Of a DNA stretch of 64,000 nucleotides, positions 6,917-55,343 are shown in pieces. Source of the DNA: Polynucleobacter sp. Adler-ghost. Its GTDB lineage: Bacteria > Pseudomonadota > Gammaproteobacteria > Burkholderiales > Burkholderiaceae. The notes below the pieces were generated by a model. It saw nothing but the letters and a program-made list of their open reading frames with translations, searched no databases and was not told the origin of the DNA. The stretch lies in contig NZ_CP061320.1 of the NCBI RefSeq assembly GCF_018688495.1, forward strand, positions 406,586 to 470,585, written 5' to 3'. The first letter of the stretch is position 1, and every line of letters begins with the position of its first letter. A program made the translations under genes and the position numbers.

Positions 6917-7246
6917 GGGAAAGCACTTTCAAAAACAGTAGGAAATTAGCTCTAGAGCGAATGTAGTTGGGTATCATTTTAGGGTTTAAATTGACAATTC
7001 ACAGAAACTTTTTCCTACCCATTTATATTGTTTTTGCTTCAACCCAAGGCAAATGGGGGTGATATTAGGGTGATAGGCCCCTTTTTAATTTATTAATTTT
7101 TACTAATAAATTCAATGACTTATATTTTTTAATCCGGCAAAAGGAATTCAAAGTAAAGTTTATCTAAACGCTTAGGTAGGCATCTCCGTAATAGGTTAGG
7201 CAAGGGGCGCTAATGTTAATAGCCCTGAAAATTTTAGGAGAAAACG
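6917..7246. other. Intergenic region upstream of fliC
   Basis: About 330 bases of AT-rich sequence between the divergent Sel1-repeat gene and fliC. It contains the candidate sigma-28 promoter (7165-7192) and the fliC Shine-Dalgarno AGGAG (7236-7240, six bases before the ATG). No ORF with coding character was seen. The leader between promoter and ATG is about 55 bases, longer than for the other genes carrying the same motif. Confidence 0.7.
7165..7192 (+). promoter_or_regulatory. Candidate sigma-28 (FliA) promoter of fliC
   Basis: TAAACGCT, 12 bases, TCCGTAAT. This resembles the enterobacterial sigma-28 form (TAAAGTTT, 11 bases, GCCGATAA) but with CCGTAA in the -10 box. The same two boxes at the same 12-base spacing occur before the three giant repeat-protein genes (47549, 50506, 55316), which is the main support. 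Flagellin is the classic FliA target. Confidence 0.72.
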
Positions 7247-8029
7247 ATGTCTACCGTTATCAATACCAACATGGCTTCTGTGTATGCCCAAAACAATTTG
7301 AGCGCTGCTCAATCTAAATTGGCTACATCAGTACAACGACTCTCATCTGGTGTGCGTATCAATAGTGCAAAAGACGACTCTGCTGGATTAGCAATTAGTA
7401 TGGGTATGTCTTCACAAATTGCTGGTATTGAACAGGCAAACCACAATTTAAGCGACATTATCGGTATGGCGCAGGTAGCTGAAACCGCCTTATCCACGAT
7501 TCAAGATATGCTTTTGCGTATGAAAACTTTGGGTACTGAGTTTGGTAATAACGCCCTAAGTACAGATCAAAAAACAGCGATTACTACTGAAGCGCAATCC
7601 ATTAAAGATCAAGTAGATCTGACGATTCGTGAAGCGGTTTATAACGGCGTTAACCTACTTGATACCAGCGGTTCTACTACCTATGATATTCAGTCTGGCG
7701 TTGATGTCGGCACTACGATCTCATTTACCGTAGCTAACGCTACAGTTGACACTACTGCTACAGACTTTTCAGTAGTCGATGCCGATCTACTGCGCATCTC
7801 TAACGAGCGTGCAAAGATGGGTGCTCTAGTAGGTCGTGCTACTTATTCTTCACAAAACCTCATGGCGCAAAGTGCCAATATTCAAAACGCGCGTTCAGCG
7901 ATTGTGGATACTGACTTTGCTTCTGAAACAGCACAATTGACCAAGGGTCAGATCATGCAACAGGCTGCTACAGCGATGTTAGCCCAAGCAAATCAAATGC
8001 CTAACGTCATCTTGTCATTATTGAAATAA
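7247..8029 (+). CDS. fliC: Flagellin, minimal length
   Basis: A 260-residue flagellin, the filament subunit. The N-terminal D0/D1 helices (MSTVINTNMASVYAQNNLS, 'VQRLSSGVRINSAKDDSAGL') and the C-terminal ones ('NARSAIVDTDFASETAQLTK', ending 'ANQMPNVILSLLK') are intact. The middle is reduced to a short beta segment (about residues 145-185), so the surface-exposed D2/D3 domains are essentially absent. No cysteine. A strong AGGAG six bases before the ATG indicates high expression. A hairpin follows the stop, then flaG. This is the only flagellin gene in the window. Confidence 0.98.
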   Translation: MSTVINTNMASVYAQNNLSAAQSKLATSVQRLSSGVRINSAKDDSAGLAISMGMSSQIAGIEQANHNLSDIIGMAQVAETALSTIQDMLLRMKTLGTEFGNNALSTDQKTAITTEAQSIKDQVDLTIREAVYNGVNLLDTSGSTTYDIQSGVDVGTTISFTVANATVDTTATDFSVVDADLLRISNERAKMGALVGRATYSSQNLMAQSANIQNARSAIVDTDFASETAQLTKGQIMQQAATAMLAQANQMPNVILSLLK

Positions 8030-8044
8030 GCGGTTATCTTTAGT

Positions 8045-8070
8045 AGAAGTCGGCCCATCGGCCGATTTCT
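8045..8070 (+). terminator. Hairpin after fliC, likely terminator or attenuator
   Basis: An 11-base-pair stem with one G-T pair: AGAAGTCGGCC at 8045-8055 pairs with GGCCGATTTCT at 8060-8070 around a CATC loop. The 3' arm and following bases are T-rich but there is no long uninterrupted T run. Lying 15 bases after the fliC stop and 24 before flaG, it could lower read-through so flagellin is made in excess of FlaG. Confidence 0.72.
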
Positions 8071-8094
8071 GACTTTAGATTAAGGGAGTAGGAA

Positions 8095-8496
8095 ATGGGA
8101 GAAATTACTAGTAAATCTGCTGCATCAGTCATTCCATCTGGCTCTGCGCAACTTAATCAACCTCCAGGAATGGGTACGGTAGTGAGTGCTCGCACTAACA
8201 CAGATGCTCAAGTCGTTTCCGCTGCCGCTAGCGTAGAATTCAAACCTTCCAATATTCAACAAATCACTCAGCAATCCCGTCAAGCAGTTGAAGCCGCTGC
8301 CCAGCAAATGCAAAGTTTTGTTAGCTCCATGGGGCGCAATTTAGACTTTTCGATTGACGGCTCGACTGGCTATCATGTAGTTCGCGTAACCAACCCGAGC
8401 ACCGGCGAAGTGATCAGACAGATGCCCTCTGAAGAAGTTTTGAGATTGGCACACAGTTTTGATCAGATTTCAGCTCTGATTCATCAAAAGGCCTAA
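8095..8496 (+). CDS. flaG: FlaG family protein
   Basis: A 133-residue protein whose C-terminal half (about 60-133) is the FlaG domain: a helix followed by 'LDFSIDGSTGYHVVRVTNPS' and 'GEVIRQMPSEEVLRLA'. FlaG is linked to filament length control and commonly sits between flagellin and fliD genes, as here. The N-terminal half is low-complexity Ser/Ala/Gln. A GGGAG Shine-Dalgarno precedes the ATG. Its biochemical role is not well defined in the family. Confidence 0.92.
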   Translation: MGEITSKSAASVIPSGSAQLNQPPGMGTVVSARTNTDAQVVSAAASVEFKPSNIQQITQQSRQAVEAAAQQMQSFVSSMGRNLDFSIDGSTGYHVVRVTNPSTGEVIRQMPSEEVLRLAHSFDQISALIHQKA

Positions 8497-8517
8497 ATCT
8501 AGCCAAAGATTCTAAGT

Positions 8518-8533
8518 TGGCATGAAAATTGCT
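8518..8533 (+). promoter_or_regulatory. Candidate sigma-54 promoter of the fliD operon
   Basis: TGGCATGAAAATTGCT. The GG (8519-8520) and GC (8531-8532) elements are spaced exactly as sigma-54 requires, and only one base differs from the TGGCAC core. It lies 52 bases before fliD. The adjacent flrB/flrC pair provides the matching activator. It would drive fliD, fliS, the FliK-like gene and the FlhB-C-like gene. Confidence 0.7.
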
Positions 8534-8584
8534 TTCTTAATAATGCAGTTCGTCTTAAGAAACGCATTTTTTAAATAGGCATTT

Positions 8585-10081
8585 ATGGCGATTTCCTCCA
8601 CATCCTCAAGCACTAGCTCTGGTACTGCCAGTATCGATGTGGCTAGTATTGTCTCGCAGTTAATGGAGACTGAAAATAAGCCAATGACAGCGCTTAAGGA
8701 GAAGATCGCTGGCAAGACTACGCTCATTAGCGACTTAGGCATACTAAAGAGTAAGGTAGCTAGTTTTCAAACGGCATTAGAAAGCTTGCAGGACCCCGCT
8801 GCCATGTCAGCGGCGGTTGCCTCTAGTTCAGATGAAACCATTGTCAAGATTACGAATTCAACTGGCGCAATTCAAGGGCGGCACGACATACTGGTGAGTC
8901 AAGTTGCTCAGCCTGCTCAGATCACTTTTGATCAGTTTGGCTCCAGTTCGGCCAATGCGGGATTGGCTGCGGGCGATACATTTTCGATCACCATTGGTTC
9001 AAGGTCATATACCTACACGCCACCAACAGGCGTAACATTGGCGACCACCACGATTGATAATCTGAAAAATTGGGTCAACGCCCTTGGTGATAATCTAAGT
9101 GCCAGCATTGTGCCAACATCAGGAAGCAATTACGCCCTAAAAATCCAGGGTACCCAGCCGGGCTCCGATAATGCGATTTCTTATTCCCATACATCCTCGG
9201 GGGCGGCAGTCAATGGCTTAGGGTCCCCAGCGGTTGCCCCTACCATTGTGGCTGCACAAAATGCCGCCTTTACGCTAGATGGCGTTACATATACTAGAAG
9301 TACGAATACCGTCACCGATGCTCTATCAGGTGTCACCATTAATTTGGTGAAAGCTGATACAGCACATCAAAGTATTAGTGTTGATAAGGGGGAAGATCAG
9401 GCCCCTCAAGTGATGCAAGGCCTTGTGGATGCATTTAATGACTTGGTCACCACCGCCAAAAAATTAAGCGTAAGAGCAAGCTCTGCTAATGGCGTCAAGA
9501 CTAATGGCTCTTTAGCTGGTTCACCAACAGCCTTAAATTTTTTAAATCAAATTAAGTCGATGTTAAATGGCGATATTCATTACACCTTGTCTGGTAATTC
9601 AGGCACGATTAGTATGGGTGAGCTTGGTTTTGAAATGCAATACGATGGCACGGCAAAATTTAATGCGAAAACCTTTAAAGAGGTTAGTAATGCGTCGGCA
9701 ATTTTAGCCTCAGGAATTAATGTTGGTTATCAAACCTATGTAGTTAGAGATCCTGAGACTGGGGTGGAAATTAGCAAAAACACTACTAACGTTACTTTAA
9801 ATTCTTATCTCACTTCTTTACTAAAGGTTACTACATCAACTACTGATGCGGGAACCCAGACATTAGCCGGCGCTTTTGATCAGATGATTAAGAACGAGCA
9901 AAGTAATATAGACAGTATGAATAAAAAAGAACGTGCCTTGCAGCTTCAATTAGATCAGAAGCAGAGAAGTTACATTAGCCAGTACTCCGCTTTGAACGAA
10001 TTATTGTTTAAGTTAAGCAATACTAGTAACTCACTAACGAATGCATTAAGCGGTTTAACAAACGGTCAAAATAACAATTGA
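8585..10081 (+). CDS. fliD: Flagellar filament cap protein FliD (HAP2)
   Basis: A 498-residue cap protein that helps flagellin fold at the filament tip. The N-terminal domain has 'IDVASIVSQLMETENKPMTA' followed by a coiled coil. The middle contains repeated beta segments of the FliD D2/D3 type ('HDILVSQVAQPAQ', 'FTLDGVTYTRSTNTVTDALS'). The C-terminal coiled coil (about 430-498) has the typical 'YISQYSALNELLFKLSNT'. No cysteine. A candidate sigma-54 promoter lies upstream and fliS follows after 34 bases. Confidence 0.97.
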   Translation: MAISSTSSSTSSGTASIDVASIVSQLMETENKPMTALKEKIAGKTTLISDLGILKSKVASFQTALESLQDPAAMSAAVASSSDETIVKITNSTGAIQGRHDILVSQVAQPAQITFDQFGSSSANAGLAAGDTFSITIGSRSYTYTPPTGVTLATTTIDNLKNWVNALGDNLSASIVPTSGSNYALKIQGTQPGSDNAISYSHTSSGAAVNGLGSPAVAPTIVAAQNAAFTLDGVTYTRSTNTVTDALSGVTINLVKADTAHQSISVDKGEDQAPQVMQGLVDAFNDLVTTAKKLSVRASSANGVKTNGSLAGSPTALNFLNQIKSMLNGDIHYTLSGNSGTISMGELGFEMQYDGTAKFNAKTFKEVSNASAILASGINVGYQTYVVRDPETGVEISKNTTNVTLNSYLTSLLKVTTSTTDAGTQTLAGAFDQMIKNEQSNIDSMNKKERALQLQLDQKQRSYISQYSALNELLFKLSNTSNSLTNALSGLTNGQNNN

Positions 10082-10115
10082 TGACTTTTAATAACTTAGT
10101 TTGGATACCTGAATA

Positions 10116-10517
10116 ATGTCAAGAAAAGCAGCCTATAGATACGCAGAAAACGAGACGATGACTGCAGTCTTGGGTGGCGACGCTCGTGAACTCATTGTGT
10201 TAATTCATCAACGGATTTTTGATCATTTAAAACTCGCTAAGCAAGACCTTGAAAAAGGCAAGTTAGGGATTGAGTACTTTATTAAAGCGAGTGATTTAAT
10301 TCAGCAGGGCTTGCTGGGTTGCTTAGATTACGAAAAAGGTAAAGATGTGGCCCATAATCTGAGTGCTATATATGTATGGTCTATGCAAGAGCTATTAAAC
10401 GCTAGAGTGGGTCGTTCACCAGAGAAGGTGCAAGACGTCATTAATACGCTGACCCCACTATATGAGGCTTGGATTGAACTATCTCCAAATAGTGTCAGCC
10501 TCAGTCAAGCGGGTTAG
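10116..10517 (+). CDS. fliS: Flagellin export chaperone FliS
   Basis: A 133-residue four-helix protein that binds the C terminus of flagellin in the cytoplasm and prevents premature polymerisation. Typical features are the N-terminal 'YRYAENETM', 'ELIVLIHQRIFDHLKLAKQD', the middle helix 'LIQQGLLGCLDYEKGKDVA' and 'LYEAWIEL' near the end. Length matches the family. It follows fliD. No clear Shine-Dalgarno was seen before the ATG. Confidence 0.95.
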   Translation: MSRKAAYRYAENETMTAVLGGDARELIVLIHQRIFDHLKLAKQDLEKGKLGIEYFIKASDLIQQGLLGCLDYEKGKDVAHNLSAIYVWSMQELLNARVGRSPEKVQDVINTLTPLYEAWIELSPNSVSLSQAG

Positions 10518-10576
10518 AATCGAGTTAGACATTCATCAATAGAAATGCAAACCTAGGAAGCTCTTAGGCGTTGATC

Positions 10577-10595
10577 GCTAAATAGTGTATTTAGC
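10577..10595 (+). promoter_or_regulatory. Perfect hairpin touching the Shine-Dalgarno of the FliK-like gene
   Basis: GCTAAATA and TATTTAGC form a perfect eight-base-pair stem around a GTG loop. The AAGGGAGG ribosome-binding site (10596-10603) begins at the next base and the GTG start is at 10608. There is no T run, so it does not look like a terminator. It may modulate translation or mark a processing point between fliS and the FliK-like gene. Function is inferred only from position. Confidence 0.45.
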
Positions 10596-10607
10596 AAGGG
10601 AGGTAGT

Positions 10608-11669: not shown

Positions 11670-11953
11670 TGGAAGAAAAGAAGACGCTGAAAGCAGTTGC
11701 GCTCAAGTATGAGATGAACAGTGCTGCACCACGAATTACAGGACAAGGCGAAGGCTTCATTGCTGAAGCTATTTTGGCCAAAGCTAAGGAAATGGGAATT
11801 CCAACCAAAATAGAGCCTGAATTAGTGGAGTTCTTAATGCAGCTCAAATTAAATGAACTGGTGCCCCCCAAACTTTACGCTGCAGTAGCGGAAGTACTTG
11901 CCTGGGCTTATGAGTTAGATGGTAAAACGCTCGAGAGACCTGTAAAGGATTAA
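11669..11953 (+). CDS. Small FlhB C-terminal-domain-like protein (FhlB/FlhX type)
   Basis: A 94-residue protein that matches only the cytoplasmic domain of FlhB after its autocleavage site: 'VALKYEMNSAAPRITGQGEG', 'AILAKAKEMGIPTKIEPELV' and 'LYAAVAEVLAWAYELDG', against the C terminus of the full FlhB at 45154 ('QIPPLARYLYSQLEIGEAIP', 'FEAIAQILAWAYD'). There are no membrane segments and no NPTH motif. Such paralogues can partly replace the FlhB cleavage product. Its start codon overlaps the stop of the FliK-like gene by one base (TGATGG), suggesting translational coupling. Confidence 0.85.
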   Translation: MEEKKTLKAVALKYEMNSAAPRITGQGEGFIAEAILAKAKEMGIPTKIEPELVEFLMQLKLNELVPPKLYAAVAEVLAWAYELDGKTLERPVKD

Positions 11954-11971
11954 AAGCTCTGTAGCTAAATC

Positions 11972-12301: not shown

Positions 12302-12315
12302 ATTATCCAACAAAA

Positions 12316-13803: not shown

Positions 13804-13817
13804 AAGGGTTTTCTGAC

Positions 13818-28282: not shown

Positions 28283-28310
28283 TAAACGAAATGGCAAATG
28301 TTTCCGTAAG
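28283..28310 (+). promoter_or_regulatory. Candidate sigma-28-type promoter at the carbonic anhydrase gene
   Basis: TAAACGAA, 12 bases, TCCGTAAG. Both boxes and the spacing match the motif before fliC and the repeat-protein genes. If it is used, transcription would start around 28316-28318, at or just before the ATG codons at 28318 and 28321, giving a leaderless or near-leaderless mRNA. That short leader makes this copy less certain than the others. Confidence 0.5.
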
Positions 28311-28317
28311 CGGACTC

Positions 28318-29382
28318 ATGATGAATAGAATCTTCAACCCTATTGTTATGGCAACATCTGCCATTCTCCTGTTATTGCTTGGTCAGCCAGTAATGGCGTC
28401 AGACCCTGCTCCGGTGGCTTCGCCTACGGAAAAGCCAGCTGATAAAGCCAAGGTGACGGTGTCTCCGGGCCCATCTAGTGATGAAGAGATGAGCAAGGCT
28501 CTAACTAATAAAATTAGCAAGGGATCTGGTGACATTGTGATTCGTAGCAGTGATCTGTCTGTTGCAGGCAATGCGCCGCTCTATGCGGAAGTCAAATCTA
28601 AGCCTGCAGTTAAAGCACCTGCTAAGTCCTCTGAAAAAGAAGCACATAACCATCATTGGTCGTATTTTGATGGACCTGGGGGCCCAGATGACTGGGGTAA
28701 TTTAGGTAAGGAAAACTTGGCCTGTCTTAAGGGTAAGACCCAATCACCGATTAATATTAATATTGATCGAACAGTCAAGGCAGAATTAAATCCCCTCGAA
28801 TTTCTTTATAGATCATCACCTTTATCGATTGTCGATAATGGACATACGATTATGGTGAACTACGGCGAGGGTAGTAATCTGATGGTCGATGGCAGGCAAT
28901 ATCGATTGATTCAGTTCCACTTTCATAAGCCAAGTGAAGAGGCGATTAATGGTGAGCGTACCGACATGGTCGCGCACTTGGTACATCAACATCACGACGG
29001 TAGCTTGGCGGTTGTTGCCGTTTTAATGAGTACTGTGAAACCAGCGGCACTCAAAAAATATTGGTGGGGTGACGATTCAGGGCAAGAGAACGCTTTAATT
29101 AATACTCTCTGGAATAAGGTTCCATTAGTAAAAGGCAAGACTGAGACTCCTGGAGTCATGATTGACATCAATCAAATGTTGCCAGCGGACAAAAGTTATT
29201 TCACCTATATGGGATCTTTGACAACGCCACCGTGTAGTGAAAACGTGCTTTGGCTTGTTCTAAAAAATCCTATTTATGTAAGTGAGGCACAAGTAAAGAA
29301 TTTTGACCGTATGTATCCTATGAATGCGCGACCGTTGCAGCCTAAAGGTGATCGTTTGGTTAAAGAAACTAAAGATCGTTAA
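28318..29382 (+). CDS. Alpha-type carbonic anhydrase, exported
   Basis: About 354 residues from ATG 28318; an in-frame ATG at 28291 is an alternative. It interconverts CO2 and bicarbonate, probably in the periplasm. A signal peptide (NRIFNPIVMATSAILLLLLG) is followed by a Pro/Lys/Ala-rich linker to about residue 105. The catalytic domain has 'HHWSYFDGPGGPDDWG', 'GKTQSPININ', the zinc ligands in 'QFHFHKPSEEAINGER' and His in 'MVAHLVHQHHDG', then 'GSLTTPPCSENVLWLVLKNP'. The domain is complete. Its place between flagellar blocks is unusual, and a sigma-28-like promoter overlaps its start region. Confidence 0.94.
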   Translation: MMNRIFNPIVMATSAILLLLLGQPVMASDPAPVASPTEKPADKAKVTVSPGPSSDEEMSKALTNKISKGSGDIVIRSSDLSVAGNAPLYAEVKSKPAVKAPAKSSEKEAHNHHWSYFDGPGGPDDWGNLGKENLACLKGKTQSPININIDRTVKAELNPLEFLYRSSPLSIVDNGHTIMVNYGEGSNLMVDGRQYRLIQFHFHKPSEEAINGERTDMVAHLVHQHHDGSLAVVAVLMSTVKPAALKKYWWGDDSGQENALINTLWNKVPLVKGKTETPGVMIDINQMLPADKSYFTYMGSLTTPPCSENVLWLVLKNPIYVSEAQVKNFDRMYPMNARPLQPKGDRLVKETKDR

Positions 29383-38421: not shown

Positions 38422-38873
38422 TGGATGTTAATCAACTAACACCTTCCATTGATCCTAATAGCGCCAGAATGCTTCAGGGTACTGCCGTTAAAACATCATC
38501 TTCTGCATCAACTAATGAAGCTAAATTAAAACAGGCTGCACAGGGATTTGAACGCACTTTATTGAGGCAGATGCTCAGTTCAGCAAGAAATACGAACTTG
38601 AATGGCATGGATGGGCAAAGTAGTGCTTCCAAGTCTTATCTAGAAATAATGGATGATCATGTAGCTGACTTGCTCTCACAAGGGCGAGGCGTTGGCTTTG
38701 GCAAGCAAATTGCTGAACAGCTGATTGCACAGTCCAATGCGGCAAAACTAAGCGGAATTCAAGAAGTAGCCGTTAAACCTTTAAATACTCCTCGTTCCGC
38801 ACCCACTTCTGTAGAAACTTTGCAGTCACTGCAAAGACCAAATGGTTTTGAGAGTACTCCTACACTAAGGTAA
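38421..38873 (+). CDS. flgJ: FlgJ rod-cap protein without muramidase domain
   Basis: A 150-residue protein that matches only the N-terminal rod-binding half of FlgJ: 'LKQAAQGFERTLLRQMLSSA' and 'MMDDHVADLLSQGRGVGFGKQI'-type sequence. The C-terminal peptidoglycan hydrolase domain found in enteric and many betaproteobacterial FlgJ proteins is absent. The last 35 residues are Pro/Ser/Thr-rich. There is no downstream remnant, because flgK starts four bases later. The cell-wall opening step must be done by another enzyme. Confidence 0.93.
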   Translation: MDVNQLTPSIDPNSARMLQGTAVKTSSSASTNEAKLKQAAQGFERTLLRQMLSSARNTNLNGMDGQSSASKSYLEIMDDHVADLLSQGRGVGFGKQIAEQLIAQSNAAKLSGIQEVAVKPLNTPRSAPTSVETLQSLQRPNGFESTPTLR

Positions 38874-38877: not shown

Positions 38878-40407
38878 ATGGGCGTCTACTCCATCACTGA
38901 TTCTGCAATGTCCGCCTTAAATATCGCACAGGCGGGCATTCTGACAACTTCACAAAACGTGGCTGGTGCATCCGTGGATGGCTTCACACGTCGCACTGCA
39001 GATGCCACAATTAATGCGCTCGCACCCAATTCTTTGATGCTCAATGGCACGAGTTTTGCTGTTGAAGGTTTCACTCGTCAATACTCCTCATTACTCAATG
39101 CTCAGGTTTTGAACCAACAAGCAAAATCGAGTTACTCGGAGACCTTGGTGCAGTACACCCAAGGAATTGATACCTTGGTAGCGGATCAGTCCACAGGACT
39201 AAATACCGCGATTAGTAATTTCTTTAATGCGCTCGGTACCTATGCAGCAGATCCCACCAGTAAGCCGCAGGCCGCCGCCATTACGGCTTCAGCAAATGAG
39301 GTAGCAAGACGTATTGTTGGTATGAGCGGCTTAACCGCACAAATTTCAAGTGACGCAAAAAAAGGTTTGGCAGACACTGCTGCGCAGGTCAATACATTAC
39401 TACCTGAGTTAGCACAAATCAATGCTCAAATTATTAAAGGTACTAGTTCTGGCAACTCTTACCCATCAGCAGATTTGTTAGATGAGCGAGATCGCCTGCT
39501 ATCTCAACTACAAAAGCTGGTAGGCGGACAATCGTTGATTAATGGCGATGGTACGGCCACCCATTTAATTGCAGGTATGCCCTTAGTTGATCGAACAGTA
39601 GCAAATAAGCTGGTAATGAATGGCGGGCAAGATATGCATACTGCAGTCTATTCATTAAAGAGTGGGGCAGACAATACGACTCTTACAAGTATTCAGCGTC
39701 TTGACGGTGGCCAAGCAGGTGCATTACTTGAATTGGTGAATACTTTTGTACCTAAAATTGATCAACGTTTAGATACGATTGCCCTGGGCCTGGTCTCTGC
39801 TGCTAATACAGCCAGCCAAACAGAAAACAATGTATTTGCTCAGACTAACCCCTTGCTCGCCATTTTTGGTTTTCAAGTAGGCTCACAAAAATTGCCTAGT
39901 CTAGAAGGGGATATCACTGCAGATATCAATAGCGTCTCAGATTCCTTTGGGCAGTTGGTATCAGGTATTAATTCAGAAGAGAATATGAATCGTCTCTATG
40001 ATTATTTAGCCAACTCAAGTAACAGCCTAACGGCATCAGGCTTTAAGGCCGCTAATTTTATTTCTCTGGCTCCAACTGATACCGCTGCATATTTTGATGT
40101 GATGGGCGATCCAATTATTACTTCAGATGCCGCTAATTTTTTGCAAAAACAAAGCTCGATATTTATTGTTAGTTCCGCCAGTTTAGTTAGTGATGTCGGC
40201 GTTCAGGTAGCTACTTGGAAAAGCACCCAAAAAGCTGATATCGCCGTGATGACTAATTTAAAAAGTCAAAAGGACTCTATTTCAGGAGTGAATCTTGATG
40301 AGGAAGCTGCAAACTTATTGAAGTATCAACAGTTATATACCGCTTCAACTAAGGTATTGCAGACTGGTAATCAAATGTTTAATGCGCTCCTATCGATCAT
40401 GAATTGA
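38878..40407 (+). CDS. flgK: Flagellar hook-associated protein FlgK (HAP1)
   Basis: A 509-residue hook-filament junction protein. The N terminus has 'LNIAQAGILTTSQNVAGASV' and 'DGFTRRTADA'. The middle has 'SADLLDERDRLLSQLQKLVG', and the C-terminal 'ISGVNLDEEAANLLKYQQLY' is the classical HAP1 signature. No cysteine. flgL follows after nine bases. Confidence 0.97.
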   Translation: MGVYSITDSAMSALNIAQAGILTTSQNVAGASVDGFTRRTADATINALAPNSLMLNGTSFAVEGFTRQYSSLLNAQVLNQQAKSSYSETLVQYTQGIDTLVADQSTGLNTAISNFFNALGTYAADPTSKPQAAAITASANEVARRIVGMSGLTAQISSDAKKGLADTAAQVNTLLPELAQINAQIIKGTSSGNSYPSADLLDERDRLLSQLQKLVGGQSLINGDGTATHLIAGMPLVDRTVANKLVMNGGQDMHTAVYSLKSGADNTTLTSIQRLDGGQAGALLELVNTFVPKIDQRLDTIALGLVSAANTASQTENNVFAQTNPLLAIFGFQVGSQKLPSLEGDITADINSVSDSFGQLVSGINSEENMNRLYDYLANSSNSLTASGFKAANFISLAPTDTAAYFDVMGDPIITSDAANFLQKQSSIFIVSSASLVSDVGVQVATWKSTQKADIAVMTNLKSQKDSISGVNLDEEAANLLKYQQLYTASTKVLQTGNQMFNALLSIMN

Positions 40408-47275: not shown

Positions 47276-47610
47276 TGATTTATAGATGGAAAGATCATAA
47301 GAAAATATTATATATCTAATTTATAGATATAAAAGATAAATATAAATAGACCGGCAACCAAAAAGAAGTAAAAAAAGACTAAACAAATCAACAGAAAAAG
47401 CCGAAACAATAAGTAGAAGTCTGAAATAAAGGCTAAAAATCTTATTTTCTGAATGGATATTAATAAGTGAAGGGATTGATTGCCCTCAAAAATAAGCTGA
47501 ACTAGAAACTATATAAATTATATATATATATATTTTATATATCTTTACTAATCAGCCCCGATTAATTATCCGTAAAAGAAGATAAGTAACTAATTTAATA
47601 GGAGTGCGAC
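47276..47610. other. AT-rich intergenic region before the first repeat-protein gene
   Basis: About 335 bases, strongly AT-rich, with TA-repeat stretches around 47515-47545. It separates the winged-helix gene from the 798-residue protein gene. It contains the sigma-28-like promoter (47549-47576) and a good AGGAG Shine-Dalgarno before the ATG at 47611. No ORF was seen. Low GC may reflect a regulatory or curved-DNA region, or acquisition from elsewhere. Confidence 0.65.
47549..47576 (+). promoter_or_regulatory. Candidate sigma-28 promoter of the 798-residue repeat protein
   Basis: TAATCAGC, 12 bases, TCCGTAAA. The box order and spacing equal those before fliC (7165). The -10 end lies 34 bases before the ATG, a normal leader length. 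Confidence 0.65.
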
Positions 47611-50007
47611 ATGGGTAACTTAGCAATTAAAATCGGTGCCGGTTCAAGAACGTTTGATGATATAGCGTTGGCTTATTCAATGAGAGGCAATCAAAAGCTC
47701 TCTATTACAGGCGCTGGAACTGATCTCTATGCCGCACTTGGTCAACTAACCGCAAAAGCTGATGGAATTGGGTCTATTAAGGCAACAAGCGATATTGTTG
47801 TTACGGCCGCTGAGGTTACCCAAAATAAAGCAGCACTTCTAAAGCTTGGCACAAGAAGTCTAGTTTTGCAAAATGCTGGTGTTGAGACGAATACAGAAGT
47901 TTCTGCCAATTTCAATTCATTAGATTCAGTATATACAAAATTCAAATCATTAAATATCTCAGCTGCTCCAACTATTGACGTGGCTAAACTTAGTACAGCC
48001 GTTAATTTAGGGGCAATGGAAGTATTGTCTGGAAAAACATTCAATGTTTCCGGTTCTGCTACAGATATCCAAAATAATATTTCATCTCTGCTTAAAAATA
48101 TATCTAAGGTTGGTTCGATTACAGTTTCTGCTGGTCAGGAACTTCAATTAAATGTTGATCAGCTCGCTATATTGGGTGATAAGCTTTTGAAATCAGCTGG
48201 AAGCTCAGTCACTGCCATCGCCGGTAGTAGTTCGACTGTTGTAAATGCAACTGCTCACGGCTTGAATACTGGTGATGCAGTACAGGCTAACACAACTCGC
48301 GGCGCTGTTGCTGCAGGCACCACTTACTATGCCAGATCTTTAAGCTCTGGTACTTTTGCGCTTTATGACACACAAGCACATGCAAATGATACTAACTATA
48401 CAACTGGAATCGTAAATACAGGGACCGTGGCAGCTAGTGATGTATTCACTAAGTCTAAATCTACAGTAGCATTGAAAGATACAGCTGATAATTTACTTAC
48501 TACAAGCGGCCTAGCTCTCATTAATAAGTTCAACAATACAAATATAAATGCTCCATCAACACAGGTGACTGCTACTGGGCTTTCTCAGAGTGCCGGTGTT
48601 CTTACCTCAACATCACTTGTTGGATTTAATACCGGTGACGCTGTAGCATATAACGGTGGCGATGTAGCCTCTGGTAGCGGTCGTTTAGCCTTAGCAGATG
48701 GTCAACTTGCCTACGCTAGAAAGCTATCTGACAACTCATTTGCGCTCTATGACAGTTATTTAAACGCTGTTACTACAAGTTCTACAGCGGGGCTTCTTAA
48801 TACAGGCGCTACTTCTACAGCCGTTGGTGCTACTTATTCAAGTCAGGTAGGTAATTCACCTTTAAGAGTCACGACCTTAGATAATGTTCAAGTAAAGGCC
48901 GCATCATTAGCACAGTTAGATCAATTTACCACTTTGACATCCTTAACTTCTACTAATCAAGGTTCAAATACTAGAGCTTTGTCTAACATAGTTAGCTCTG
49001 TAGAAGTTGCTGATACATTGTCTAAATTGCAAGCTAATGGTGAGACAAAAACAGGAACTGTAACTTCAGGAGCCGCTTCTGATTCTACGGGTATCATAGC
49101 TTTGAATACTCATGGCTATGCGAGTGGTGACGCAGTTACTTTTGCTACTACTGGAACAAAAGCTGCTACAGGATTAACTAGTGGAAACGTATACTATGTT
49201 GGTAAGTTAGATGCTGGTAGATTCGTACTATATGACAATAAGGCTGACGCTGTTGCATTGGACGTTTCTACTAGTGAGGCTGCTGGATACCTTGCCAAAC
49301 CTTGGAAAGCAATAACTGCCCAATCTGGAGCTGGTACCCTCACATTTTCAAGAAGCGCCTTGGAAAATTCTATGAAAGCAGTCACTTCTTATAAAGATGG
49401 TACTGGGTCGATTAGTAGGGTGACTATAAAAGGATCTGGTGCTATTACGTCTACAGATTTACAAAGCATTACTTCTAAAGTTTTAAGGACTAACGCCAAC
49501 GCAAATGTTACATATTCAGCTAAGGCAGTTGATATTCAAAATAACCTTCAGGCTATATATGACAACAAAACAGTCTCTGGAAACAATCCACTAACTGAAA
49601 TTGTAGTTACAGATGGAACTGCGATGGGGAAAAAGGGATTCTCCATGTCTCAGACCTTCTATACAGCTTTGAAATCAATATTCGCTAATGGTGTAGATAA
49701 TCCAGCTGGAAAAACCACAAATAAGAACTATTCATTTACTATCTCGTCCGCAAGCTTTGATAGCGGTAATCCAACTACACTACAAGATGATGTTAATGTT
49801 TCAACCTATGCAATAACAAATGCTTCTTACAGTGATCTTGATCCTATTGCCCATCCTGATTATTTACGCATTGCGTTAGGTCAGTCAAAGCTCAAGTCAT
49901 TAACAACACAAAGTATTTCTGACTCAACTCAGAGAAATGTAATTAAAAATCTGTTGAATGCAATCGGAAATCCTGTGGATAGAGCTAAGTTAAAGTTGAT
50001 TGGATAA
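47611..50007 (+). CDS. Large Cys-free repeat protein (798 residues), function unknown
   Basis: A beta-rich, Ser/Thr/Ala/Asn-rich protein with no cysteine and no N-terminal signal peptide. Two repeat types are visible. One is a domain of about 75-85 residues at roughly 200-273, 317-400 and 481-562, with the pattern NTGDAV, then (Y/L)xAR or YYV, then FALYD or FVLYD, like modules seen in large surface proteins. The other is a 'DIQNNISSL' / 'DIQNNLQAIYD' segment also found in the 809-residue protein. The promoter is sigma-28-like and a strong terminator follows. An exported surface or filament-associated protein is my inference. It is paralogous to the protein at 50574. Confidence 0.85.
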   Translation: MGNLAIKIGAGSRTFDDIALAYSMRGNQKLSITGAGTDLYAALGQLTAKADGIGSIKATSDIVVTAAEVTQNKAALLKLGTRSLVLQNAGVETNTEVSANFNSLDSVYTKFKSLNISAAPTIDVAKLSTAVNLGAMEVLSGKTFNVSGSATDIQNNISSLLKNISKVGSITVSAGQELQLNVDQLAILGDKLLKSAGSSVTAIAGSSSTVVNATAHGLNTGDAVQANTTRGAVAAGTTYYARSLSSGTFALYDTQAHANDTNYTTGIVNTGTVAASDVFTKSKSTVALKDTADNLLTTSGLALINKFNNTNINAPSTQVTATGLSQSAGVLTSTSLVGFNTGDAVAYNGGDVASGSGRLALADGQLAYARKLSDNSFALYDSYLNAVTTSSTAGLLNTGATSTAVGATYSSQVGNSPLRVTTLDNVQVKAASLAQLDQFTTLTSLTSTNQGSNTRALSNIVSSVEVADTLSKLQANGETKTGTVTSGAASDSTGIIALNTHGYASGDAVTFATTGTKAATGLTSGNVYYVGKLDAGRFVLYDNKADAVALDVSTSEAAGYLAKPWKAITAQSGAGTLTFSRSALENSMKAVTSYKDGTGSISRVTIKGSGAITSTDLQSITSKVLRTNANANVTYSAKAVDIQNNLQAIYDNKTVSGNNPLTEIVVTDGTAMGKKGFSMSQTFYTALKSIFANGVDNPAGKTTNKNYSFTISSASFDSGNPTTLQDDVNVSTYAITNASYSDLDPIAHPDYLRIALGQSKLKSLTTQSISDSTQRNVIKNLLNAIGNPVDRAKLKLIG
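48211..49296 (+). repeat. Three diverged copies of a 75-85-residue domain
   Basis: Protein-level repeats inside the 798-residue protein, at about 48211-48430, 48562-48810 and 49054-49296. Shared features are a Gly/Asn-Thr-Gly-Asp-Ala-Val turn, a Tyr-rich strand (TYYARSL, LAYARKL, VYYVGKL) and a closing FALYD, FALYD or FVLYD with an Ala-rich end. DNA similarity is low, so the repeats are old. Confidence 0.75.
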
Positions 50008-50027
50008 CTAAGATTGCTTAAGTAAAG

Positions 50028-50065
50028 AACTCGTGATCTTTTTATAAAGATCACGAGTTTTTTTT
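50028..50065 (+). terminator. Strong intrinsic terminator after the 798-residue gene
   Basis: AACTCGTGATCTTT (50028-50041) pairs perfectly with AAAGATCACGAGTT (50046-50059) around a TTAT loop, followed by a run of eight T. It ends transcription of the 798-residue gene. The A-rich 5' flank is short, so bidirectional use for the opposing small gene is possible but weaker. Confidence 0.93.
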
Positions 50066-50109
50066 GCTTTCTGAAATATTGTTCAACTGACACTCGAAAA
50101 CGATTAAGC

Positions 50110-50316: not shown

Positions 50317-50505
50317 ATTGATTCCTTGAAAATCGAGATACTGATATACATATCTTTATCTACTTTACAACGAACTGAATTAGTAATCACTAACTTATTT
50401 AGATCTAAATGTCACCCAAACAGTAAAAACTCTTGGGGCAGGGTATCGAGGTCTAAAAAGAAGGGATGGATCTTTAAATGCATTACTAAATAAGTCGATA
50501 TCTCC

Positions 50506-50533
50506 TAATGAATAAGCCATTTTTAGCCGTAAA
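50506..50533 (+). promoter_or_regulatory. Candidate sigma-28 promoter of the 809-residue repeat protein
   Basis: TAATGAAT, 12 bases, GCCGTAAA. Same architecture as before fliC and the other two repeat-protein genes. The -10 end lies 40 bases before the ATG at 50574. Confidence 0.65.
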
Positions 50534-50573
50534 TTGACTGTAGGCACTATGTAGGTGCCAATAGGATAATTCA

Positions 50574-53003
50574 ATGACGGCGTTGTATACAGTAGGGGGT
50601 ACCGGGTACAGCACCCTAGTAACTGCCCTTGCCAATCAAGGTAACGTAGCTGTGACAGGCGCTGCAGGCGACCTGTCTGACACCGTATTGTCTGAACTTG
50701 AAGCAAATAGCGCAAGAATTTCTACCATCACGCTCTCGGGTAACGATAATTTATCGTTGACAGGCTCCAAGGTGACATCTTATAAAGATGTCATTCTGAA
50801 GTTAGCTTCTGCAAAATTGAATGTTGCAGACACTGCTGCAGGAATCGGCGGTAATAATTTCAAGAGTCTTGATGCTGTGTATACAAAGATTAATGCAATC
50901 ACTGTAAGTGATGCTGGTCCAGTATCAGTGGCATATAGCGTTTATAGCTCAAATACAAATGAACAAGCTATAGAGACGCTAATAAGAGCTAATGATAATA
51001 AGGGGGTTGCAGTAACCAATTTCTCTGGAAATGCTAATGCTCTAAGTACTTTGATAAGCGATGGTGACGTAAAGTCAATTTCCTTAAAAGAAAGCATTGC
51101 AAACCTGACTACAAACGCAACTGCAATTAATGGCAGTAGCAAGATTGCCTCAAGCTCCATTACCGTCTTTGATACCTTAACAAACATTAATGCTGATGCT
51201 GCAAAAACCCTAGTTGGAACAACGCTAGCAGCTAAGGTATCTTCAGTAGCAATATCCATGGGTGCCGCAGATTTAACTACTGAAAATCTGGCAACTATCA
51301 ATGCATTGCCAGATGCAATTAAATCAAAAGCCAGTATTAGTATTAACGATAACATCGCCAATCTGAATACAAACTCAACTGCAATTAATGCTAATAGTAG
51401 GGTTGCCTCAAACTCGATTACTGTTTCAGATACATTAGCAAATATTTCTGCAAGCGCTGCAAAGACTCTGATTGGAAGCACTATCGCAAGCAAGGTATCT
51501 TCAGTCGTAATATCTTTGGCTGCTGCAGATGTGACCACTGCCAATCTCCAAACAATCTACGCTTTGCCAGATGCAATCAAATCAAAAGTCAGCTTTAGTA
51601 TTAGCGGTAGCGTAAATTCAGTTCCATTGGCCATGTCTGCTACTGAAATGACCTCGGCAAATTTGGCAATTATTAACGCTTTGCCCGATTCCATTAAATC
51701 AAATATTAGTCTTAGCATTACCGGAAGTGCTACCGACATTATCAGAAATTCTGACACCATCACCGCATTGGGTAGCAAGGTTACATCTATCGTAGGAACG
51801 AATGCATCAATTGCAAATTTAACAACATTAAATTCTTTAAAGAATAAGTTCACAGCAATTGGTATTACAGATATAGGCGCCAACTTAGCGCAAACCACTT
51901 CGACAAATCACACAGCCTTGGGTGATGCAATCACATCATGGACATCTGGAAAAATTTCAGGCCTCAAATTATCTGCAATACCGACAACTACAGCGCTTGC
52001 GTCAATTTTATCGGCAGTTTCTGGTAACAGCATTGCTGTCTCAGTTTCGGATACAGCGTCTAATCTGAACAAAGATTTGGCGTCAGCAAGCTCAGTAATT
52101 GGATCTAACATCAGCAATCTATCATCCGTTGCTGTTAGTGATGGCACATTACTGAAAAAAGCAGTATTGAATATGTCTAGCGCACAATACACTGCTTTAA
52201 AAATCAAATTAACTGGTCAGAACACTTTTATTTTGAGTACAGTCCCATATGCTGACTACAACACAGTAAAAAATGATACCGCTGTTCTTAAATACAGCGT
52301 TCAGGATACTTATACAAATTTAGCATCGGCTGATCTATCCACAATGCTTAGTAGTACCAGTTTATTAGGTCTGAAGATCACAAATGCAGCAGTTACTGAC
52401 GTAAGTACTATTAGTGCGCAGTATGCAGCATTAGCTCCCTCTTATAGAAACAAGTTAAGTTCTGTAACAGTGACAGACACCTCAGCAAATTTGCTGGGAA
52501 GCGCTTCGACATTAACCAATCTGAGAAGCAATAATCTGATTAAGAACATCTATGCAACAGGAGCAAGCCTTGCTAATGTTCTAACACTCAAATCCAATCC
52601 TAAGGTCACAGGTATTACTGTGTCTGATACAGAAGCGAATTTCAAACTGGGCGCTAATGCTTCATTAGTTTCTTACTCAAGAGTAACGAGTTTTTCTTTA
52701 ACTGCTGTTGGTACAGCCTCCTTATCTGGTACTAATAATTATCTCAGTAACAGTAAGATCACATCAATTGACGTAGCTGACACTCTCACGAATATTAATG
52801 GAATTAGCGATACGATTATGAATAATACAAAGCTCAATCAAATTACTGCAAATGCAATATCGATCAGTGATATTGCTACCGTAAGCAGTAAATCAAAAGT
52901 TGCATCAATTAATGTATCCGATTCCTGGGCAAATATTAAGACCTATTTTGCTGGTACCGGTGCGACGCAAAATTCAAAAGTAAAAACGTTCACCGTTGTT
53001 TGA
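50574..53003 (+). CDS. Large Cys-free repeat protein (809 residues), function unknown
   Basis: A protein made almost wholly of repeated segments of about 20-40 residues with the pattern (I/V)(S/T)VSDTxANL, helix, KITSI or KVSSV, seen for example in 'ITVSDTEANFKLGANASLVS'. A longer unit recurs near residues 170-340 ('NLTTNATAINGSSKIASSSI' and 'NLNTNSTAINANSRVASNSI'). No cysteine and no signal peptide. It shares an N-terminal motif (F-x-SLDxVYTK) and a C-terminal 'SDGT...YTALK' segment with the 798-residue protein, so the two are paralogues. The fold may be a beta-solenoid. Its promoter is sigma-28-like. Confidence 0.85.
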   Translation: MTALYTVGGTGYSTLVTALANQGNVAVTGAAGDLSDTVLSELEANSARISTITLSGNDNLSLTGSKVTSYKDVILKLASAKLNVADTAAGIGGNNFKSLDAVYTKINAITVSDAGPVSVAYSVYSSNTNEQAIETLIRANDNKGVAVTNFSGNANALSTLISDGDVKSISLKESIANLTTNATAINGSSKIASSSITVFDTLTNINADAAKTLVGTTLAAKVSSVAISMGAADLTTENLATINALPDAIKSKASISINDNIANLNTNSTAINANSRVASNSITVSDTLANISASAAKTLIGSTIASKVSSVVISLAAADVTTANLQTIYALPDAIKSKVSFSISGSVNSVPLAMSATEMTSANLAIINALPDSIKSNISLSITGSATDIIRNSDTITALGSKVTSIVGTNASIANLTTLNSLKNKFTAIGITDIGANLAQTTSTNHTALGDAITSWTSGKISGLKLSAIPTTTALASILSAVSGNSIAVSVSDTASNLNKDLASASSVIGSNISNLSSVAVSDGTLLKKAVLNMSSAQYTALKIKLTGQNTFILSTVPYADYNTVKNDTAVLKYSVQDTYTNLASADLSTMLSSTSLLGLKITNAAVTDVSTISAQYAALAPSYRNKLSSVTVTDTSANLLGSASTLTNLRSNNLIKNIYATGASLANVLTLKSNPKVTGITVSDTEANFKLGANASLVSYSRVTSFSLTAVGTASLSGTNNYLSNSKITSIDVADTLTNINGISDTIMNNTKLNQITANAISISDIATVSSKSKVASINVSDSWANIKTYFAGTGATQNSKVKTFTVV

Positions 53004-53111
53004 TAATTGCTAATTAATGCAAATATGACTTGAGATAGCCCTCATTTAATTGCCCCACCTGGTTTTGGTATTCAAAATGGATTTTGACGCTAGAGTGATT
53101 GTTGATTGACT

Positions 53112-53981
53112 ATGCTGAGCAATATCAAGACCGTTTTATCTTCAGTAATTTCTGCTGGTTTAAAGTCAACGACGGCAAAAGAAGGTTTGTTGTATGAAGG
53201 CCAAACACTCTGTGGGCTCGCAAGAGTAACGCAAGATCGTGATGGTATCCGCACACTACGCTTTGGAAAAAATGGGCCACGTCAAAGCGTAGTCAAACCA
53301 GGCGACCTTAATTACTTAGGATTGCCATATATAAAATCGGCGACGATCGGTCTGGCGTTTACTGAGCATATAGATCGCATTTTGGTAATTGGGGTAGGGG
53401 GTGGCTCAATACCCATGTTTTTGCACAAACACTATCCAAGCGTGCACATCGATGTTGTTGATATTGATCCGCAAATTATTGCTTTAGCAAAGCAATATTT
53501 TAATTTTGCGGAGAATCGTTCTTTGATCTCTCATGCACAAGATGGTCGAACCTTTGTTGAAAATGTTCAAAAGCCTTATGACCTGATTTTTTTAGATGCT
53601 TTTACAGCAGCAGGAATACCAAAACACCTGGCAACCAAAGAGTTTTTGTTGGCCATGAAAAATGCTCTCAATGCATCTGGCGCCATCATTACCAATATGT
53701 GGAGCACTGTCACTGCCAATCCCCTCTATAAACCCATGCTTCGCACTTATCAGGAAGTCTTTCATGAGGTCTACACCTTGAGGGTCCCAAAAGCAGGTAA
53801 TAAGGTTGTGATTGCACTACCAATAATAAAAAAGGTGACCTTAAATGGTCTTGCTGAGCATGCGCAGCAGATCAGCGTGCAAAAGACTTTGCCATTTGAT
53901 TTGAGCGAATTATTACAGCCCGGATTGGTCAAGTTAATTGATCTTCAGGGTAGCAAAATACTGCTCGATAGCGAACAATAG
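53112..53981 (+). CDS. Spermidine-synthase-like methyltransferase-fold protein
   Basis: About 289 residues from ATG 53112; a TTG at 53106 is in frame. The Rossmann fold has the SAM-type glycine loop 'ILVIGVGGGSIPMFLHKHYP', then 'VHIDVVDIDPQIIALAKQYF' (acidic residue of strand 2) and 'YDLIFLDAFTAAGIPKHLAT', close to polyamine aminopropyltransferases (SpeE family). The substrate cannot be read from the sequence. Many proteins of this group are not true spermidine synthases. It lies between two giant repeat-protein genes, possibly modifying a surface component. Confidence 0.75.
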   Translation: MLSNIKTVLSSVISAGLKSTTAKEGLLYEGQTLCGLARVTQDRDGIRTLRFGKNGPRQSVVKPGDLNYLGLPYIKSATIGLAFTEHIDRILVIGVGGGSIPMFLHKHYPSVHIDVVDIDPQIIALAKQYFNFAENRSLISHAQDGRTFVENVQKPYDLIFLDAFTAAGIPKHLATKEFLLAMKNALNASGAIITNMWSTVTANPLYKPMLRTYQEVFHEVYTLRVPKAGNKVVIALPIIKKVTLNGLAEHAQQISVQKTLPFDLSELLQPGLVKLIDLQGSKILLDSEQ

Positions 53982-54077
53982 TTAGTGGGTGCTATGCATT
54001 AGGACCCAGCATATGGCTATTTATAAATCCCTACTATTTATAAGGATTATTAATGCCATTATGAGCTCGCCAATCAC

Positions 54078-54105
54078 TAACAGCAATTGGAGTTAAAGCC
54101 GTATA
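54078..54105 (+). promoter_or_regulatory. Weak sigma-28-like motif upstream of the 88-residue protein
   Basis: TAACAGCA, 12 bases, GCCGTATA. The spacing is right but both boxes deviate from the other copies. It lies 124 bases before the ATG at 54230. It could serve that gene, or be chance. Confidence 0.3.
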
Positions 54106-54229
54106 CCCTTATTGGTGCATTGAGATAAGGCGTGTTTAGGGTTGCTCTATTTTTGTGCAGCGCAACTTTTGTTTATAACTTTTTTCTGTTATTTTTTCCC
54201 TTCTAGAAATTACAAAGCTTCCAAAAATC

Positions 54230-54496
54230 ATGAGTATGCATTTACCTCATTTTCCTGAAACTACTTTCATCCGTTTTAAAGCCCTTGTGGCTTTAACGGT
54301 GGCAGATATTTGTCTGGTTCATGATAAATGGCTTACCTTTACCGTGTTGCTGGTCATTGCCGTTGCTCTAGAGTTTCTCTATCGCAGTTTGCATGAGGTT
54401 TTGTTGCACAATCATGAAATTGAAAAAGCGACCGAAAAAATTGCTCAGCGCAAAGCCCATCAGAAGGCAATGGAAGAAGCCGGCGTGCATCATTAA
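54230..54496 (+). CDS. Small membrane-associated protein, unknown
   Basis: An 88-residue ORF. A hydrophobic stretch at about 40-58 ('LTFTVLLVIAVALEFLYRSL') could be one TM helix. The C-terminal 30 residues are charged and helical (EKATEKIAQRKAHQKAMEEA). I do not recognise it. It is convergent with the FliG-C paralogue gene, 24 bases away. Confidence 0.55.
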   Translation: MSMHLPHFPETTFIRFKALVALTVADICLVHDKWLTFTVLLVIAVALEFLYRSLHEVLLHNHEIEKATEKIAQRKAHQKAMEEAGVHH

Positions 54497-54520
54497 GCCG
54501 CTTTAAGTCAGATCGATTCA

Positions 54521-54943
54521 TTAGAGATACTTTTCGTCTAAAGCCGTTTTGCGTAGGGTAATCTTTTGAGTTTGGTGCAGCTCGTAGGCCACTTTCAATA
54601 CCTCTAACTGCACTGCATCAATTTCTGGGCTTTTCAGCTTCTCGCTATTTTGTAAGTCTTCCCCAATGCTCCTGGCTCTGGCCTTGGTCATGGCACTCAA
54701 GATCTTGATACCCAAAGGTTTGCTCACCTTTTTTAAACAAATCACGAGGCTTTTATCCGAAATCTTGTGGAGCAGGCTTTGCATATCTAGATCTGTAAGA
54801 AAGACCAAGTCTTCAAAGCTGTAGAGGCGATCTAGGATTTCCTTAGCAATTTGGGCATCATGACTCTCTACATGCTTTACCCCCAAATCCACCTGGGCTT
54901 GATGCAGGTGCGCCAAAATCGCGGCGGCATTTTTCACTGTCAT
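54521..54943 (-). CDS. Stand-alone FliG C-terminal-domain paralogue
   Basis: About 140 residues from ATG 54943; the same frame is open upstream to a TTG at 55066. It aligns with the middle/C-terminal part of FliG encoded at 17109: 'AAAILAHLHQAQVD' with 'TAEILNNLSGGLDK', 'LYSFEDLVFLTDLDMQSLLH' with 'MFVFEDFLELEDRSLQTLMT', and 'LVICLKKVSKPLGIKILSAM' with 'LIIALKGASPKLREKIFKNM', then GEDLQ with REDLE. The lysine of ALKGA and the ED pair are kept; the arginine of the torque helix is shifted. The FliF-binding N domain is absent. It may cap, block or modify the rotor. Confidence 0.8.
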   Translation of the reverse strand: MTVKNAAAILAHLHQAQVDLGVKHVESHDAQIAKEILDRLYSFEDLVFLTDLDMQSLLHKISDKSLVICLKKVSKPLGIKILSAMTKARARSIGEDLQNSEKLKSPEIDAVQLEVLKVAYELHQTQKITLRKTALDEKYL

Positions 54944-54980
54944 GGTTAACGGACGCTTCCCAAAGGCAGGCTGAAGCTGA

Positions 54981-55127
54981 TTAACGCCTCCAAAAGCAAG
55001 AAAGTTTGCGATCCATACCCGCCGCGTAATCGTGATAAACCCACTGATTGCAGATCCCCTGATCAATGAATAGCGCTAAGCCTAAGACTGCCAGAGCGCT
55101 GAGGAGGTATTTGTATACATGCTTCAT
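54981..55127 (-). CDS. Possible 48-residue membrane or secreted peptide
   Basis: A short ORF starting ATG at 55127 and ending TAA at 54981, upstream of the FliG-C paralogue and in the same direction. It reads MKHVYKYLLSALAVLGLALF followed by IDQGICNQWVYHDYAAGMD and a basic end (CFWRR). The N terminus looks like a signal anchor. The Shine-Dalgarno is poor. It overlaps the upstream open part of the FliG-C paralogue frame, so only one of the two is likely coding there. Confidence 0.35.
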   Translation of the reverse strand: MKHVYKYLLSALAVLGLALFIDQGICNQWVYHDYAAGMDRKLSCFWRR

Positions 55128-55315
55128 GATTAGCCTATTGTAGGATTAGCAGCAAATTTACACAAAGTGGCAATTTACCCCAGATTAAAGGCGTTCTTAT
55201 CCTGCTTTGGGAGGGGTGACCACCTATCTCACTGCCCAAAAGCTCCTGTTAGCGGTCATCTGCGTCAAATCACGTTTTTTATATCAAATTTTGCGGTTTT
55301 TAGTCATTTAAGGGG

Positions 55316-55343
55316 TAAATGAAAGCGTCACTTTAGCCGTAAT
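55316..55343 (+). promoter_or_regulatory. Candidate sigma-28 promoter of the 1205-residue repeat protein
   Basis: TAAATGAA, 12 bases, GCCGTAAT. Same two boxes and spacing as before fliC. The -10 end lies 33 bases before the GTG start at 55377. Confidence 0.68.

Follow-up and report, generated by a model that had tools for sequence, protein, structure and literature searches.

The window analysed here comprises 64,000 nucleotides (bases 406586-470585) of the single-contig, 2.10-Mb genome of Polynucleobacter sp. Adler-ghost. It contains a flagellar gene cluster and, downstream of flhB, three giant genes encoding proteins of 798, 809 and 1205 amino acids (aa). These three genes and the flagellin gene fliC are preceded by a shared bipartite motif, which we regard as the Polynucleobacter promoter for the sigma-28 factor FliA, approximately TAAW-n16-NCCGTWWW and often with a C before TAAW. 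FliA very probably controls the three giant genes. The first-pass annotation of the window had placed the three large proteins in the late flagellar (FliA) regulon, and this placement is supported by a matrix built out of sample and by the retention of the boxes in five genomes. It is also backed by the same element at fliC, at flgK and within flgA before a flgM-like open reading frame (ORF), by the off-cluster matches of the motif, which lie at ORFs, and by the co-occurrence of FliA and the ALTTAQ repeat (PF20080, the family of the 1205-aa protein) in the genus. The motif, its conservation and its regulon neighbours are read directly from the DNA, and from them we infer FliA binding and co-expression with flagellin.

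FliA-type promoters in the flagellar cluster

By family, the window genes include fliA, flhF, fliC, a sigma-54 regulator pair, fliF, fliG, fliH, fliI, fliL, fliM, fliP and fliR, followed by flgD, flgE, flgH, flgK, motA, motB and flhB. Each name is the best family match, in some cases below the curated cut-off. The names flhA (for a 696-aa ORF), fliD-like and flgL are our own assumption from sequence or position. The presence of fliA, on which the first-pass proposal leaned, is confirmed above the family cut-off.

All four promoter sites of that proposal, at 7165, 47549, 50506 and 55316, are found on the plus strand with the same 28-base layout. The gap to the start codon is 34 bases for the 798-aa gene, 40 for the 809-aa gene and 33 for the 1205-aa gene, in agreement with the 33-40 bases originally given, and 54 bases for fliC, so that the sites stand just upstream of the gene starts. 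The -35 TAAA box, the -10 box with a CCG core and the near-fixed spacing of a sigma-28 promoter are found, with TAAT instead of TAAA in two of the giant genes. The claimed likeness to the known FliA promoter, for which PMC2859248 gives the E. coli consensus TAAAGTTT-n11-GCCGATAA, holds for the box order and for the TAAA and CCG cores; it does not hold for the spacing, which is one base longer.

The exact pattern occurs six times in the window against 0.04 expected, and none of 100 shuffles reaches six; since the pattern was derived from four of these matches, the low chance rate is partly circular. The matches at 5775 (plus strand) and 41690 (minus strand) lie antisense inside flhA and motA, respectively, and are probably not promoters. 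The match at 5775 is also present in five of six relatives, as conserved coding sequence would give.

The circularity is reduced by the relatives and by an out-of-sample matrix. The matrix was trained on 18 fliC promoters of other genomes, none of them from the five genomes in which the 809-aa gene occurs; three of the 18 training genomes (G075, G161 and G139) hold distant ALTTAQ genes. Of the 30 flagellin loci fetched from the genus (L020-L049), 23 have the 28-base layout; by eye, L049 has a 27-base one. The script left L036 and L042 unassigned, and the short loci L032, L045, L047 and L048 fall outside the layout reading. Among the approximately 128,000 window positions on either strand, the best four are the sites of fliC, flgK, the 798-aa gene and the 809-aa gene. 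Four positions score at least 12, against 0.5 on average in 20 Markov windows. The genes and sites concerned are as follows.

611..1300, minus strand: fliA, sigma-28; NCBIfam TIGR02479 at 217.9 bits, cut-off 189.6
7165..7192, plus strand: FliA-type promoter of fliC, matrix score 27.9
7247..8029, plus strand: fliC, flagellin, 260 aa; Pfam Flagellin_N and Flagellin_C
38749..38776, plus strand: FliA-type promoter before flgK, score 19.3, second best window position; within the 3' end of a flgJ-like ORF
38878..40407, plus strand: flgK, Pfam FlgK_D1; motA (MotA_N) and motB (MotB_plug) lie downstream
47380..47407, plus strand: second FliA-like site of the 798-aa gene, the distal one; score 10.1, ninth best window position; aligned in five of five genomes
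47549..47576, plus strand: proximal FliA-type promoter of the 798-aa gene, score 14.4
47611..50007, plus strand: 798-aa protein; no cysteine, no Sec-like N-terminus, no Pfam family
50506..50533, plus strand: FliA-type promoter of the 809-aa gene, score 12.9
50574..53003, plus strand: 809-aa protein; predicted strand-helix solenoid, predicted local distance difference test (pLDDT) 86.4, predicted template modelling score (pTM) 0.53
55316..55343, plus strand: FliA-type promoter of the 1205-aa gene, score 6.1; boxes kept in five of five genomes
55377..58994, plus strand: 1205-aa ALTTAQ-repeat protein; PF20080 at 300.4 bits, cut-off 26.4; predicted all-helical solenoid

The matrix was also applied to the 110 bases upstream of each ORF of 200 aa or more (n=69), the ORFs coming from a mechanical list for the window and three nearby or more distant stretches (L062-L064). 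Ranks 1-4 are occupied by fliC and the three giant genes, the latter at ranks 2-4 (chance about 2e-5). In the relatives (12 stretches from six genomes, 136 ORFs), the six fliC genes take ranks 1-6, the training loci of G131 and G031 being among them, and the 12 giant orthologues take ranks 7-16, 18 and 20. The Mann-Whitney p of 7e-9 for these orthologues is to be read with the caveat that they are not independent and that many upstream regions of the other ORFs are coding.

The genes fliC, flgM and flgK are classical sigma-28 targets, and in E. coli motAB belongs with them. The flgK site was not part of the original finding; a counterpart scoring 12.6-18.0 stands at the same place in six of six relatives. 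The flgJ-like ORF around it matches Rod-binding at 23.1 bits, below the cut-off of 25.1. Just outside the window, one exact match that was not used in deriving the pattern falls within the 3' end of flgA (Pfam ChapFlgA). A flgM-like ORF of 114 aa, which matches FlgM at 23.7 bits, just below the cut-off of 25, begins 255 bases after this match. This site is present in all seven close genomes read, and coding constraint may account for its presence.

Conservation and occurrence in related genomes

When the upstream regions of orthologues are compared, the two boxes appear as conserved islands in the five aligned genomes, as expected of a promoter; the orthology of the 798-type gene of G097 is assigned by position and N-terminus. 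Ahead of the 798-aa gene, all five have an unchanged CTAATCA and TTATCCGT at the proximal site; upstream of this gene, three other genomes have CCGTTTA and one has CCGTTTG. At the distal site, 169 bases farther up, CTAAACAAA and GCCGAWA are kept in all five. This conserved second site, which is FliA-like and some 230 bases ahead of the gene, suggests tandem promoters. At the 809-aa gene GCCGT is invariant in all five genomes, and the single weak case is G162, in which the -35 box is degenerate. The 1205-aa gene is preceded by a conserved block that reaches from about 110 bases upstream up to the start. Two genomes have GCCGTAAT at the site and the other three have GCCGTTAT, an A/T alternation that fliC promoters also show. 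In the leader of the 809-aa gene (50540-50562), an inverted repeat GGCAC/GTGCC, a possible hairpin, is identical in G083 and partly kept in the others.

One more small gene between the giant genes may be a further member of the regulon, judging from its upstream site in the relatives.

54078..54105, plus strand: candidate FliA-type site about 150 bases before the 88-aa ORF, score 5.5 in the window
54230..54496, plus strand: ORF of 88 aa that contains a hydrophobic stretch and is kept in relatives; candidate further regulon member

The site of this ORF scores 10.3-18.8 in all four giant-bearing relatives and 2.7 in G131, which lacks the giant genes. The G031 stretch yielded no such ORF, and Pfam gave the ORF no family.

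The 809-aa gene is present in five of 151 Polynucleobacter genomes, and flagellin at 91-100% identity is present in all five. For the 809-aa and 798-aa proteins, the named relatives (n=5) are from Polynucleobacter in every case, and the contig scan gave one relative of the 798-aa protein, from Polynucleobacter bastaniensis. ALTTAQ matches occur in 13 of the 151 genomes. A FliA match (1e-45) is found in 11 of these 13 and in 39 of the 138 others (Fisher 1e-4; with the five orthologous loci taken as a single one, 0.004). The two sets of counts assume the same 151 genomes, whose handles agree where listed, and the FliA match of G161 is partial and below the cut-off.

The ALTTAQ gene lies inside or adjoins flagellar genes in nine of the 13 genomes. 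In five it stands immediately beyond flhB, and in G075 and G161 ALTTAQ genes lie between or adjoin motB and flhB, as recognised by similarity to the window genes. A 1488-aa ALTTAQ gene of G075 has a site scoring 15.4; a 506-aa ALTTAQ frame of G161 ends at the contig end. In G105 and G007 the ALTTAQ genes adjoin flagellin-like genes and fliR (recognised by Pfam in G105 and by matching ORFs in G007) and have TAAA-N15-GYCGTAAA upstream, which is the enteric spacing. The same layout is found before flgA in both genomes (FlgA by Pfam in G105). By eye, no flagellar ORF was recognised in the ALTTAQ stretches of G139, G019 and G015, and G025 falls outside the neighbourhood reading. A look-alike with the 27-base layout was seen by eye upstream of the repeat gene of G015.

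Some side observations concern the same genomes. The loci of G105 and G007 (L129 and L130) represent a second flagellar cluster type, in which the flagellin-like genes of G105 match Flagellin_N without Flagellin_C, and FliA of these genomes scores about 269 bits against about 215-225 for most others. In contig C6 of G075, part of which is L123, the ALTTAQ matches are mirrored across both strands, probably an assembly artefact.

Another gene between the giant genes has no tie to the promoter.

53106..53981, plus strand: spermidine-synthase-like methyltransferase (PF01564)

An ORF like it is still present in G131. Elsewhere in the window, a eukaryotic-type alpha carbonic anhydrase gene (PF00194, 140.2 bits; 28291-29382) lies between fliR and flgD within the flagellar cluster, and an Adhesin_E family protein (PF16747) is encoded near the giant genes on the minus strand at 60481-60972.

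The giant proteins and their proposed export

The 1205-aa protein consists almost entirely of repeat, with an 8-residue period and a 48-residue super-period. The AlphaFold model of its residues 1-600, folded without an alignment, shows mostly short helices each 8 residues (pLDDT 78.7). The 798-aa and 809-aa proteins fail PF20080, and neither has a Pfam family at E 0.001; they share 32% identity across 116 N-terminal residues. In the structure search the 50 matches listed per model have template modelling scores (TM-scores), taken by query, of at most 0.28, with COI1-type repeats among the weak top matches of the 809-aa model and mesothelin among those of the 1205-aa piece. For these predicted models the matches indicate a solenoid and nothing further. 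Extra domains are frequent among the 67 relatives of the 1205-aa protein (25-38% identity); they include PF00353, PF00648 and PF05860, which we take to be RTX, calpain and haemagglutination domains, respectively.

Cysteine is absent from all 15 giant proteins of the five genomes (711-1324 aa). As a measure of Sec-likeness, the most hydrophobic 12-residue stretch within the first 45 residues was averaged. The value is 0.65-1.27 in 14 of the 15 and 1.81, which is borderline, in the 809-type protein of G012; the exported controls (FlgA, a FlgI-like protein and two lipoproteins) give 1.87-2.27. The HlyD model TIGR01843 reaches at best 38.1 bits in this genome against a cut-off of 208.65 and passes it in one of 14 control genomes. 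The type I model TIGR03375 stays below its cut-off in this genome and passes in none of the 14 controls, which makes it a weak test. In the three proteins neither an RTX domain nor a known target or retention domain of type I secretion was found. With neither of the two models passing, a dedicated type I route is unsupported.

With no Sec-like N-terminus on the giant proteins and no recognised type I exporter in the genome, the leading candidate for their export is the flagellar apparatus. From these observations we infer the export route and a surface role, and we give export of the giant proteins through the flagellar apparatus an even chance. In enteric bacteria, completion of the hook allows the anti-sigma factor FlgM to leave the cell. 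The motif probably drives fliC, flgK and the genes behind it, flgM, and the three giant genes beside the flagellar cluster. After hook completion and the exit of FlgM, FliA would transcribe the giant genes along with flagellin, and their products would most likely leave through the flagellar type III apparatus and might act at the filament or the cell surface as adhesive or spacer rods. This account in full, in which a FliA promoter drives the giant genes and flagellar export is followed by a surface role, is the likely best explanation. A more specific version is put forward tentatively, with slightly less than even confidence: that giant cysteine-free solenoids of 700-1300 aa are co-expressed with flagellin, exported by the flagellar type III apparatus and form a layer on the filament or cell surface of planktonic freshwater bacteria, ALTTAQ solenoids having been recruited to at least two kinds of flagellar cluster in Polynucleobacter.

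Competing explanations and known systems

A number of points weigh against FliA control followed by flagellar export. FliA regulation of the giant genes is argued from sequence, and flagellar export is argued from absence, with two type I models searched. The giant proteins are larger than the flagellum-secreted proteins familiar to us. ALTTAQ frames occur across the wider order (matches in eight of 200 genomes at 1e-7, listed frames of 276-9542 aa), and the repeat itself is not established as flagellar. The ALTTAQ genomes G015 and G019 have no FliA match, which leaves the idea of ALTTAQ proteins as flagella-specific unsupported. Two ALTTAQ genes, the 431-aa one of G075 and the 587-aa one of G161, lack a site within 300 bases, and in neither layout was a site found upstream of the flagellin-like genes of G105 and G007. 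The 809-aa site of G162 scores 2.5. The 1205-aa site scores only 6.1 here (6.1-11.7 in four relatives) and is, by matrix, the weakest of the four original sites, at rank 20 in the window. Positions of at least 12.9 are contained in seven of 20 Markov windows, so one matrix score of about 12.9 alone proves little. In the whole genome the exact pattern has eight matches against nine for the reversed control, a count not above chance.

These last figures speak for a chance match, as do like scores in random windows. The genome scan proposed with the first-pass annotation thus gave no excess in abundance, and it did show the expected clustering around flagellar genes: seven of the eight matches lie within 406031-461928, that is, in 56 kb around the flagellar genes of a 2.1-Mb genome. 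Of the variant patterns, TAAAN16NCCGTWAW has seven genome matches (31 in the reversed control), four of them in this region, one being the flhA antisense match. CTAAN18CCGTWAW has nine (control 15), six in the region, and five of these are the flgM, fliC, flgK, 798-aa and 809-aa sites. The seven off-cluster matches of the three patterns lie within, overlap or are antisense to ORFs and have matrix scores of -1.1 to 7.8. Chance is rejected for the set as a whole by the placement, the out-of-sample upstream ranking and the conservation in relatives, and we regard it as almost negligible; its best case is the 1205-aa site, yet this is kept in all five genomes. That the element serves flagellin and the giant genes as the promoter of another sigma factor, or as a regulator site, is very improbable. 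FliA binding itself is a matter of interpretation, and the -10 box CCGTWAW differs from the enteric CCGATAA; against this stand the element at fliC, at flgK and before the flgM-like ORF, the presence of fliA in the cluster, and a box order and TAAA and CCG cores that fit the consensus in PMC2859248.

If FliA controls the genes, their products may still take another path. Exit by another exporter, an unrecognised type I-like system or other, with adhesins merely co-regulated with motility, is somewhat unlikely. The many 1205-aa relatives with extra domains and the frames of up to 9542 aa in other Burkholderiales suggest that other exporters exist for such proteins, and among 15 genomes it is G019, with ALTTAQ and without a FliA match, whose TIGR03375-like transporter scores highest (555.5 bits, below the cut-off of 693.1). 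Here the lack of an HlyD-type adaptor over the cut-off and of an RTX or type I target domain on the three proteins argues against this route. It is distinctly unlikely that the proteins remain intracellular or in the envelope, where they could, for instance, serve as scaffolds close to the base of the flagellum. They have no signal peptide, solenoids are often intracellular scaffolds, and the top PDB neighbours include eukaryotic scaffold and receptor solenoids, at low TM-scores; the absence of cysteine from all 15, the composition rich in threonine, serine and alanine, and the length variation between species give them an exported look instead.

With FliA control as the preferred reading, the late flagellar regulon gains proteins without known function, and the genus gains a FliA promoter model of its own. 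The giant proteins are then likely partners of the flagellum, secreted or at the surface. That FliA should control large unknown proteins is modestly surprising. A greater surprise, if true, would be their flagellar export, which raises the question whether giant repeat proteins can pass through the flagellar exporter. If they can, flagellated Polynucleobacter would build a surface structure via the flagellum, and this would bear on how these abundant freshwater bacteria adhere, are grazed and meet phages. Among the papers found on Polynucleobacter flagella and on FliA-linked flagellar secretion, none treats this regulon, judged by title and the start of the abstract, and no paper was found on ALTTAQ.

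The sigma-28 class III regulon of E. coli shares with the present one the TAAA box followed by a CCG core at near-fixed spacing. It differs in that the spacing here is one base longer, the -10 box is CCGTWAW and not CCGATAA, and three giant genes are probable extra targets. The nearest working parallel is the flagellar co-expressed determinants (Feds) of Campylobacter jejuni. According to PMC5223770, sigma-28-dependent Fed proteins of Campylobacter are secreted, and FlaC, FspA and the Cia proteins require the flagellum. By Pfam and NCBIfam the giant proteins share no family with the Feds, FlaC, FspA or Cia proteins; they measure 711-1324 aa, and their secretion is a proposal. As a member of PF20080 above the cut-off, the 1205-aa protein resembles the other ALTTAQ proteins; unlike these relatives, which often have extra domains, it is nearly all repeat and stands behind a FliA-type promoter.

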